Shown here piece by piece: positions 4,288-64,000 of a DNA stretch of 64,000 nt. The notes below the pieces were generated by a model. It ran no database searches and was not told the origin of the DNA. It saw only the letters and a program-made list of their open reading frames with translations. A program made the translations under genes and the position numbers. Position 1 is the first letter of the stretch; every line of letters begins with the position of its first letter. Source of the DNA: Prevotellaceae bacterium (GTDB lineage: Bacteria > Bacteroidota > Bacteroidia > Bacteroidales > UBA932); the NCBI GenBank assembly GCA_031266015.1, contig JAISBU010000013.1, positions 1 through 64,000 on the forward strand. Reading direction: 5' to 3'.

Positions 4288-4368
4288 TTACAGCCCGTCA
4301 ATCCACTTGATTTTCTTTCCGTCCTCAATGGAGCGCGGGTAGTAATCCAACAACGATGCCGTCATTCC
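4288..4368 (-). pseudogene. C-terminal remnant of an unrecognised gene
   Basis: On the minus strand codons from 4368 to 4288 read MTASLLDYYPRSIEDG and then KKIKWIDGL, stop. The amino-acid composition and ordinary codons look like a genuine protein tail. Its upstream part is replaced at about 4361 by dispersed repeat text, whose GGAATGAC supplies the only ATG. The parent family was not recognised. It could also be a chance reading frame; 26 codons is short. Confidence 0.35.
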
Positions 4369-59923: not shown

Positions 59924-59931
59924 TAATTTTG
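59924..59931 (+). promoter_or_regulatory. -7 promoter element of the TonB receptor-hemH operon
   Basis: TAATTTTG matches TAnnTTTG, 24-31 nt before the ATG at 59955. No good -33 TTTG is visible, consistent with a promoter needing an activator. Confidence 0.6.
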
Positions 59932-62309: not shown

Positions 62310-63602
62310 ATGAACTATTTTGAACGCTTTAAGCTACGCTGGAACATTCAATCCAACAAACAGCTGGTGATTGTATTTACAGCTTTCGGAGTCGCCGGAT
62401 TCAGCACATTGGGGGTAAAAAAAATACTGCTACCTTTGCTTGGCGTTACGCCCGAAACTCCTTTGTACCTGAAAATAGCGGCCGAAGTATTAATTATTCT
62501 ACCGGCCTATCAGGTACTGCTAATTATAGTCGGCTCAATTTTCGGGCAGTACAGATTTTTCAAAAGATTTCTACGCAAAATGTTTTTTCTTGACCGAAAA
62601 AAGAAGGGTGCGATTGAGAAAATAAGTACTCTAACCTCTGACATAAAAACGGCCATACTTATTGTAAATACAGGAACTCCGAGAAGCTCATCATGGTCTC
62701 ACGTGGCCCAATTTCTTTTTCGTTTTTTAAATGACAAGCGCGTTATCGACTTGCCGTTTATATCACGCACGCTCCTTGTAACCGGCTTCATAATTCCTTT
62801 CCGCCTGCTCAAGTCAACCCGACGCTACAGGCTGTTGATGAAGAATAGCACGCCGCCGCTACTCCGGCATACGCAAGATGTTGCAGCGCGATTAAATGAG
62901 CGCCTGCCCGAAAACATGCATGCCTTTTATGCCATGCGCTACAGCCGGCCCTCGTTGAAAGAGGCGCTTTCGGAAATTGAAAAAGCAGGCTACGAGAAAA
63001 TCATACTCATTCCGCAATTTCCGCAATATGCCGAGGCTACAACCGGTTCAATCCTGGCAGAGGTGAGGCGATTGAGCAGAAAAATGACCACCCCGATTCC
63101 AGCTAAAGTTGCGGATCAATTCTACCGGCATTCCTCGTACATCAACGCGCTATCCAACAGCGTAAGGCCTTACCTTAAGCAAAATTTTGACCACATTATT
63201 TTCTCCTTTCACTCGCTACCGCTACGCCAGGCAAATAAAACAATAAATACAAACGCCTGCTATAGAAGCACTTGCTGTAAGACAGCCAGCTTAACAGCAC
63301 AGGAGTTGGGGCTAAAAAACAGCGATTACAGCGTGTGCTACCAGTCAAAGCTATCACATGGCTGGTTAGGGCCATTCATCGAAAATGCCCTTATCAGCTT
63401 GGCAAAACGAGGAAAAGAACGAGTACTTATTGTAGCGCCATCTTTTGTGGCAGATTGTCTGGAAACCAACATTGAGCTGGCGCTAGAGATCCAAGACCTG
63501 TTTATTCGTCATGGAGGTCAGCAGCTGGAAGTTGTGCCTTGCCTCAACAGCAGCCCGCTATGGATACAGGCGCTTTTGCAGCTTATTCAGGAGCAGAGGT
63601 AG
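62310..63602 (+). CDS. hemH: Ferrochelatase fused to an N-terminal DUF6787-like membrane domain
   Basis: Protein of 430 aa. Residues 1-95 match DUF6787: FERFKLRWNIQSNKQLVIVF, a first helix ~18-44, a second ~56-77 (AAEVLIILPAYQVLLIIVG), then FGQYRFFKRFLRKMFF. In most Bacteroidota, this domain occurs alone. From about residue 112 the ferrochelatase fold follows: ILIVNTGTPRSSS; LIPQFPQYAEATTGS near residue 237; SFHSLPLRQ with the active-site His301; CYRSTCCKTA, the Cys-rich stretch of some ferrochelatases; QSKLSHGWLGP; and APSFVADCLETNIE with Glu385. The enzyme inserts Fe2+ into protoporphyrin IX, and the helices would anchor it to the inner membrane. No other haem genes are in the window. It starts 36 nt after the receptor stop. 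Confidence 0.85.
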   Translation: MNYFERFKLRWNIQSNKQLVIVFTAFGVAGFSTLGVKKILLPLLGVTPETPLYLKIAAEVLIILPAYQVLLIIVGSIFGQYRFFKRFLRKMFFLDRKKKGAIEKISTLTSDIKTAILIVNTGTPRSSSWSHVAQFLFRFLNDKRVIDLPFISRTLLVTGFIIPFRLLKSTRRYRLLMKNSTPPLLRHTQDVAARLNERLPENMHAFYAMRYSRPSLKEALSEIEKAGYEKIILIPQFPQYAEATTGSILAEVRRLSRKMTTPIPAKVADQFYRHSSYINALSNSVRPYLKQNFDHIIFSFHSLPLRQANKTINTNACYRSTCCKTASLTAQELGLKNSDYSVCYQSKLSHGWLGPFIENALISLAKRGKERVLIVAPSFVADCLETNIELALEIQDLFIRHGGQQLEVVPCLNSSPLWIQALLQLIQEQR

Positions 63603-64000
63603 CAATTGGTAATTGGTAATTTTTAATTCAAAAATTATCCCATCATTGCAAGCGAAGCGAAGCAACCTCAATGCCAATAACCCTGCGCTCATGGTAGAAG
63701 ATTCCTCCGCTACGCAGAGCCTGCCTCGAGCAAAGTCGAGGGGGTCGGAATGACGAGGCAGAGATTCCTCCACTCCGCTTCGCTCCGATCGGAATGACGA
63801 GGCGGCGGTAAACGAAAAAGAGGTGTTGGGCGGCGGCGTAGCCGCCGCCCAACACCTCCTCCTCAACAACAACCTCGTCATTCCGACCAAGCGCACGGGG
63901 AACGAGGGCGTGCGTGGAAAAATCTCTTTCCCGTCCCATCCCCACCGCCGCGCCCTTCGACAGGCTCAGGACGACAGCACACATGCACAACGGCAGCATG
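63603..64000. repeat. Repeat island with nested palindromes (dispersed repeat, copy 3)
   Basis: No gene was found. A GAAGCGAAGCAACC piece lies near 63652. Two copies of GTCGGAATGACGAGG lie at 63743-63757 and near 63788-63802. The inverse CCTCGTCATTCCGA at 63873-63886 pairs with the second (63789-63802). Inside that pair sits a perfect 18-bp stem, GAGGTGTTGGGCGGCGGC / GCCGCCGCCCAACACCTC, around a GTA loop (63820-63858). A CCTTCGACAGGCTCAGG piece lies near 63953. The right end matches 4360-4381 exactly over 22 nt. It continues past the window edge. Confidence 0.8.

Follow-up and report, generated by a model that had tools for sequence, protein, structure and literature searches.

The window, the 64,000-nucleotide stretch analysed here (positions 1 to 64,000 of contig JAISBU010000013.1, from the Prevotellaceae bacterium assembly GCA_031266015.1, a gut-type member of Bacteroidales), shows a gene that encodes an N-terminal DUF6787 domain joined to a complete ferrochelatase (HemH), as well as a TonB-dependent receptor gene which ends 36 bases upstream of it (Table 1).

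Table 1. Features of the receptor and fusion genes, in coordinates of the window.
Feature	Position	Strand	Basis
Bacteroidota-type -7 box TAATTTTG, ATTG 20 bases upstream	59924..59931	+	By eye, consensus match only
TonB-dependent receptor, 772 aa	59955..62273	+	Pfam Plug, TonB_dep_Rec
DUF6787-ferrochelatase fusion gene	62310..63602	+	ATG start, 430 aa
DUF6787 domain, aa 21-92	62370..62585	+	Pfam PF20584, E 6.9e-19; hydropathy, charge; AlphaFold2
Linker, aa 93-112, former intergenic region	62586..62645	+	DNA comparison and protein alignment
Ferrochelatase domain, aa 113-429	62646..63596	+	Pfam PF00762, phmmer, Foldseek
Catalytic His301 (SFHSLP)	63210..63212	+	phmmer alignment to human enzyme
Catalytic Glu385 (CLET)	63462..63464	+	phmmer alignment to human enzyme
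[2Fe-2S] insertion remnant CYRSTCC (Cys317, Cys322, Cys323)	63258..63278	+	HemH protein alignment; motif definition PMC8529089

The fusion had been proposed from the letters alone, with its DUF6787 part recognised by eye, and domain searches bear it out in every detail. Both Pfam domains are far above their cut-offs in the whole protein: DUF6787 scores 68.4 bits (cut-off 27.5) over profile positions 1-72 of 79, and Ferrochelatase scores 294.6 bits against a cut-off of 27 (E 1e-87), covering positions 1-316 of 317. Residues 1-110 searched alone also match DUF6787 (E 6.5e-20), and the fusion protein reaches 212.6 bits with the TIGR00109 hemH model, whose cut-off is 124.6. A chance match is excluded by these E-values and by sister genomes, which have homologues of the two halves arranged in the same order. 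The two catalytic residues which the sequence-only reading took as marks of an intact enzyme are found where it placed them, His301 in the alignment column of human His263 and Glu385 in that of human Glu343. Among solved structures, phmmer found human protoporphyrin IX (PPIX) ferrochelatase as the closest (E 3e-27), with coproporphyrin ferrochelatases (CpfC) at E 4e-6, and Foldseek with the first AlphaFold2 model returned human ferrochelatase (E 9e-9) and also Bacillus ferrochelatases; by sequence, the enzyme half appears closer to the PPIX type. A C-terminal CAB/LHC helix is absent, since the HemH domain reaches residue 429 of 430, and the hydrophobic domain is the N-terminal DUF6787. An internal [2Fe-2S] insertion is present in 96% of surveyed Bacteroidetes ferrochelatases (PMC8529089). 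The fusion HemH does not show the four-cysteine form of it (CxC ... CxxxxC type) found in Bacteroidota [2Fe-2S] ferrochelatases: in the HemH alignment this enzyme lacks the upstream CxC pair together with about 20 insertion residues, and only the CYRSTCC motif is left. This shortened motif, with loss of CxC, is common to HemH of the window's genus and of its sister genus. A different insertion, charged, repeat-like and about 30 residues long, was observed in the middle of the HemH enzyme of another genome (L087:1462-2652, G647).

Hydropathy of the DUF6787 part shows two hydrophobic segments, at about residues 18-46 and 51-81, and AlphaFold2 predicted helices at 3-10, 16-43, 52-77 and 81-91, the last one amphipathic, basic and located behind the second transmembrane helix; the two transmembrane helices are placed at about residues 18-43 and 52-78. 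Lysine and arginine outnumber aspartate and glutamate by 10 to 3 after helix 2 and by 4 to 1 before helix 1, with one of each kind in the loop; by the positive-inside rule, both ends of DUF6787 would therefore be in the cytoplasm. With two predicted helices and a strongly positive C-terminal flank, the N-terminus looks like the two-helix membrane anchor previously guessed for it. In the first AlphaFold2 model of the fusion, the DUF6787 hairpin was clear and the HemH part weak, owing to the small number of relatives in the input alignment, and a second AlphaFold model with the correct HemH alignment recovered the first enzyme strand at 114-120, with confidence still modest. On these predictions, the fusion protein would be inserted in the membrane with this topology and may benefit from tethering.

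Bacteroidota promoters have the consensus TTTG-N19-21-TAnnTTTG, and the -7 box TAATTTTG lies about 24 bases before the ATG of the TonB receptor gene. This box is likely the promoter of a two-gene unit formed by the receptor and the fusion, and the promoter match together with the 36-base gap makes it probable that both genes are in one transcript. Orthologues of the receptor precede DUF6787 in three genomes (G403, Gx481 and Gx485). Its best solved relative is the pesticin receptor FyuA, of siderophore type (E 3e-21), and it obtained 42.7 bits with the TIGR01785 TonB-hemin model, below the cut-off of 316.85; its identity as a haem receptor was dropped as unproven. The receptor had been read as a sign of porphyrin import, but being siderophore-like it is not by itself proof of this, and it may import iron rather than porphyrin. 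No porphyrin importer was identified. The intergenic region at 63643-63999 contains three copies of CGTCATTCCGAC, and one more is found at 4360, where 0.1 copies would be expected in the window; it is an interspersed repeat that produces spurious ORFs.

In the sister genus g180, formed by Prevotellaceae bacterium MAGs that probably come from termite gut, as judged from their isolate codes, DUF6787 is encoded by a gene of its own, about 100 codons long. Three of these genomes show it beside hemH. In G403, TonB receptor, DUF6787 and hemH follow one another at distances of 11 and 62 bases; in G438 (Im510_bin108, L092), an M23 peptidase is followed by DUF6787 and, after 9 bases, hemH; and in G486 (Cd354_bin66, L096), DUF6787 and hemH are 25 bases apart. 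Other g180 genomes show the TonB receptor and DUF6787 without hemH, or hemH after the same M23 peptidase without DUF6787; loss or reshuffling of the modules is therefore possible, and DUF6787 and hemH need not be paired. In another genus of the family, hemH is located directly after a sirtuin-like gene, usually with a 4-base overlap, as a conserved pair (L082:1480-3122, L083, L084, L085 and L086).

Phylogenetic trees place the window HemH, which sits on a long branch, as sister to the g180 HemH proteins, and group the window DUF6787 with the g180 DUF6787 proteins, with support of 100/98 in each case. At the junction, the sister genomes show a stop codon and then an ATG, whereas the frame of the window is open through 60 bases. 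DNA comparison and protein alignment show that codon 112 is ATA (62643-62645) at the point where the sister hemH genes start with ATG, and no in-frame ATG, GTG or TTG is found between Met91 and Val132. Met91, encoded by an in-frame ATG, belongs to the conserved DUF6787 tail and could be the start of a nearly soluble HemH. Because of the change from ATG to ATA, translation of intact HemH can no longer begin at the old site, and the protein needs an N-terminal extension. The fusion was found in a single MAG among the 300 genomes sampled from the family, and the matches included no further genome of the window's own genus. Sequence comparison indicates that it is a genuine gene fusion, formed from a DUF6787-hemH pair, and the adjacency of both as separate genes in close relatives suggests a functional association of this anchor family with haem enzymes in Bacteroidales.

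Searches for haem-pathway families in the genome, which is 95% complete, covered only hemB, hemC, hemG, hemH and cydA. Neither hemB (PF00490) nor hemC (PF01379) was found, and hemG (protoporphyrinogen oxidase) gave only short N-terminal matches below the cut-off, as expected of other flavoproteins. The ferrochelatase family PF00762 is present in a single copy, and cytochrome bd subunit I (cydA) is found at G000:C26. A complete haem biosynthesis pathway would have counted against the sequence-only reading; with hemB and hemC absent from the steps that precede HemH, this is not what the genome shows. The cell therefore needs haem, is unable to make porphyrin and retains the last enzyme. Since the upstream pathway is absent and cytochrome bd is present, the most likely role of the orphan HemH is to load imported protoporphyrin with iron, in the haem-forming direction. 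A literature search yielded no useful information on haem in termite-gut Bacteroidales, and in the library searched no paper names DUF6787.

Across the phylum, DUF6787 is present in 99 of 395 genomes, some of them without any hemH. In the 49 sampled genomes in which both genes could be placed from tables, they are never adjacent; 13 of these show both genes on the same contig, the closest pair 73 kb apart. Haem neighbourhoods are found in Bacteroidales. DUF6787 and hemH are neighbours in two genomes outside the window's family (G822 and G904), and G925 shows a complete run hemA-hemC-hemD-hemB-hemL-hemE-DUF6787-hemF (L146:1178-9164), in which hemA, hemB, hemE and hemF were identified by Pfam, and hemC, hemD and hemL from sequence similarity and visual inspection. 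In G820, a haem O synthase-like gene, ctaB, overlaps DUF6787 by 4 bases, with a score of 180 bits that is under the equivalog cut-off of 210. The DUF6787 copies of these four genomes are in one clade of six (support 98/90), apart from the clade of the window, so the association with haem genes appears to have had two or more origins, with the caveat that the deep branches of such a short domain are weak. An immediate haem-synthesis neighbour is found in 5 of the 17 Bacteroidales genera with DUF6787, against about 1% or less expected per locus, which gives a rough binomial p of about 1e-6 or lower, calculated post hoc and with genera treated as independent. Sampled Flavobacteriaceae and other groups show no haem gene beside DUF6787; its neighbours there include DUF6146, aquaporin, aspartate kinase and MiaA, and a NCBIfam scan of DUF6787 neighbours returned chiefly aspartate kinase models.

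DUF6787 is also fused to enzymes of other pathways. Five genomes of family f5 (L044-L048), another family of the same class, show it joined to PurN, a phosphoribosylglycinamide formyltransferase-like protein (Formyl_trans_N), and one Bacteroidales genome, G954, to MsrA (PMSR, E 1e-64; L126:1447-2337). The PurN fusions are divergent from a gene pair of multihaem cytochrome and molybdopterin type that resembles alternative complex III, and the MsrA fusion has a hydrophobic stretch between its two domains. A strict link of DUF6787 to haem was ruled out by the PurN and MsrA fusions and by the distance from hemH in the 49 genomes. Thus, of the earlier suggestion that DUF6787 is a partner for porphyrin or metal handling, the connection with haem genes holds elsewhere in Bacteroidales and the specificity does not; the survey of neighbourhoods found DUF6787 and hemH adjacent in g180, G822 and G904, and apart in the 49 phylum genomes. 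The PurN and MsrA fusions make a general tether the simplest common denominator for DUF6787.

Taken together, we consider it probable that this is a real fusion and that it provides a haem auxotroph with a protoporphyrin ferrochelatase tethered to the inner membrane, DUF6787 being recruited as a general tether. A DUF6787-hemH gene pair would have lost the intervening stop codon and the hemH start codon. DUF6787 would form a helical hairpin with both termini in the cytoplasm, whose basic tail, together with the short linker, would keep the complete ferrochelatase at the cytoplasmic face of the inner membrane. There, the enzyme would insert ferrous iron into protoporphyrin scavenged from the surroundings, and catalysis beside the membrane would suit a hydrophobic substrate that arrives there and haem that is needed there, for example by cytochrome bd. 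DUF6787 is best seen as a general two-helix membrane tether that has been repeatedly recruited by haem enzymes in Bacteroidales, and its fusion to unrelated soluble enzymes such as PurN and MsrA fits this role.

A closer tie to haem is possible but tentative: DUF6787 may be a membrane scaffold for the last haem-synthesis steps in Bacteroidales, which brings HemH, and elsewhere HemE/HemF or haem O synthase, to the membrane and helps to pass porphyrin or haem on, the window showing the fused single-chain form of it in a protoporphyrin scavenger. It is doubtful that DUF6787 is a dedicated haem-pathway protein, acting in the hand-over of porphyrin or haem at the membrane, and the fusion a Rosetta-stone link to that function. 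The recurrent Bacteroidales neighbours (hemH in three families, the hemE/hemF operon and ctaB), the 5 of 17 genera and the haem neighbours of four of the six members of the 98/90 clade speak for such a role; however, PurN (five genomes) and MsrA are further fusion partners of the domain, which lacks haem neighbours in the sampled Flavobacteriaceae and other groups and occurs in genomes without hemH, and the p value is post hoc and presumes independent genera. A near-neutral read-through, in which the stop was lost with no functional gain while DUF6787 may keep its own job and HemH may also be made from Met91, seems unlikely. It agrees with a fusion seen in one genome only, with a short linker that is former intergenic region and with the in-frame ATG at codon 91, but both halves are still conserved, and HemH has lost its own ATG and yet, on a long branch, retained the entire domain with its catalytic residues; the fused form must therefore be capable of working.

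The standard HemH reaction proceeds towards haem, and no sequence feature hints at reversal; both points weigh against the proposal that the fusion removes iron from imported haem, or exchanges metals, to supply the cell with iron. This alternative had already been raised from the sequence, and apart from the organism being a haem auxotroph and the gene lying beside an iron-type TonB receptor, no positive evidence for it was found at the window. In addition, the protein credited with anaerobic iron removal from haem in Bacteroidota is HmuS, which is CobN-like and unrelated (PMC12583661), and Lactococcus is a known case of a haem auxotroph that keeps hemH and uses protoporphyrin and iron (PMC4696147). 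Iron removal from haem is thus the less likely activity, and we regard it as quite improbable. An assembly or sequencing artefact joining two genes is extremely unlikely and was rejected: the evidence comes from a single MAG contig, but the junction is a clean, open 60-base stretch well inside a 118 kb contig, and the gene order is the same as in the split relatives. The lost hemH start codon speaks strongly for dependence on the fused protein and against a misassembly.

For DUF6787, a domain without known function, the fusion and the Bacteroidales haem neighbourhoods provide a first testable hypothesis, the membrane tethering of haem enzymes, while the PurN and MsrA fusions caution against calling it a porphyrin protein. 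The case also shows that a haem auxotroph can retain and relocate solely the last enzyme of the pathway.

An orphan ferrochelatase in a haem auxotroph that uses protoporphyrin is found in Haemophilus, with no fusion to a membrane domain. The orphan hemH of Lactococcus likewise lacks the upstream pathway and charges imported PPIX, and unlike the fusion it has no membrane domain (PMC4696147). The DUF6787-PurN and DUF6787-MsrA proteins show the same N-terminal hairpin before a soluble enzyme, although their enzymes are unrelated to haem. Cutibacterium acnes HemH-ChdC is also a natural ferrochelatase fusion, in which the partner is a second haem-synthesis enzyme, coproheme decarboxylase, and not a membrane domain (PMC8529089). 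Type II ferrochelatases of plastids and cyanobacteria, such as the cyanobacterial enzyme with its C-terminal CAB helix, resemble the fusion in having a linker that joins a hydrophobic membrane segment, and in their PPIX substrate (PMC3563542); however, they carry one C-terminal helix homologous to chlorophyll-binding proteins and belong to phototrophs, whereas the fusion has two N-terminal DUF6787 helices and is found in a haem-auxotrophic member of Bacteroidales. PufQ, which binds ferrochelatase in Rhodobacter, resembles DUF6787 as a small membrane protein of helical structure that forms a pair with ferrochelatase, and it has been proposed to place the enzyme in the membrane (PMC5725709), but it is a separate protein with one helix that acts at the branch between haem and bacteriochlorophyll, and the likeness is one of principle, with no homology claimed. 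Membrane-tethered ferrochelatases are already known as a kind; what differs here is the anchor family, DUF6787.
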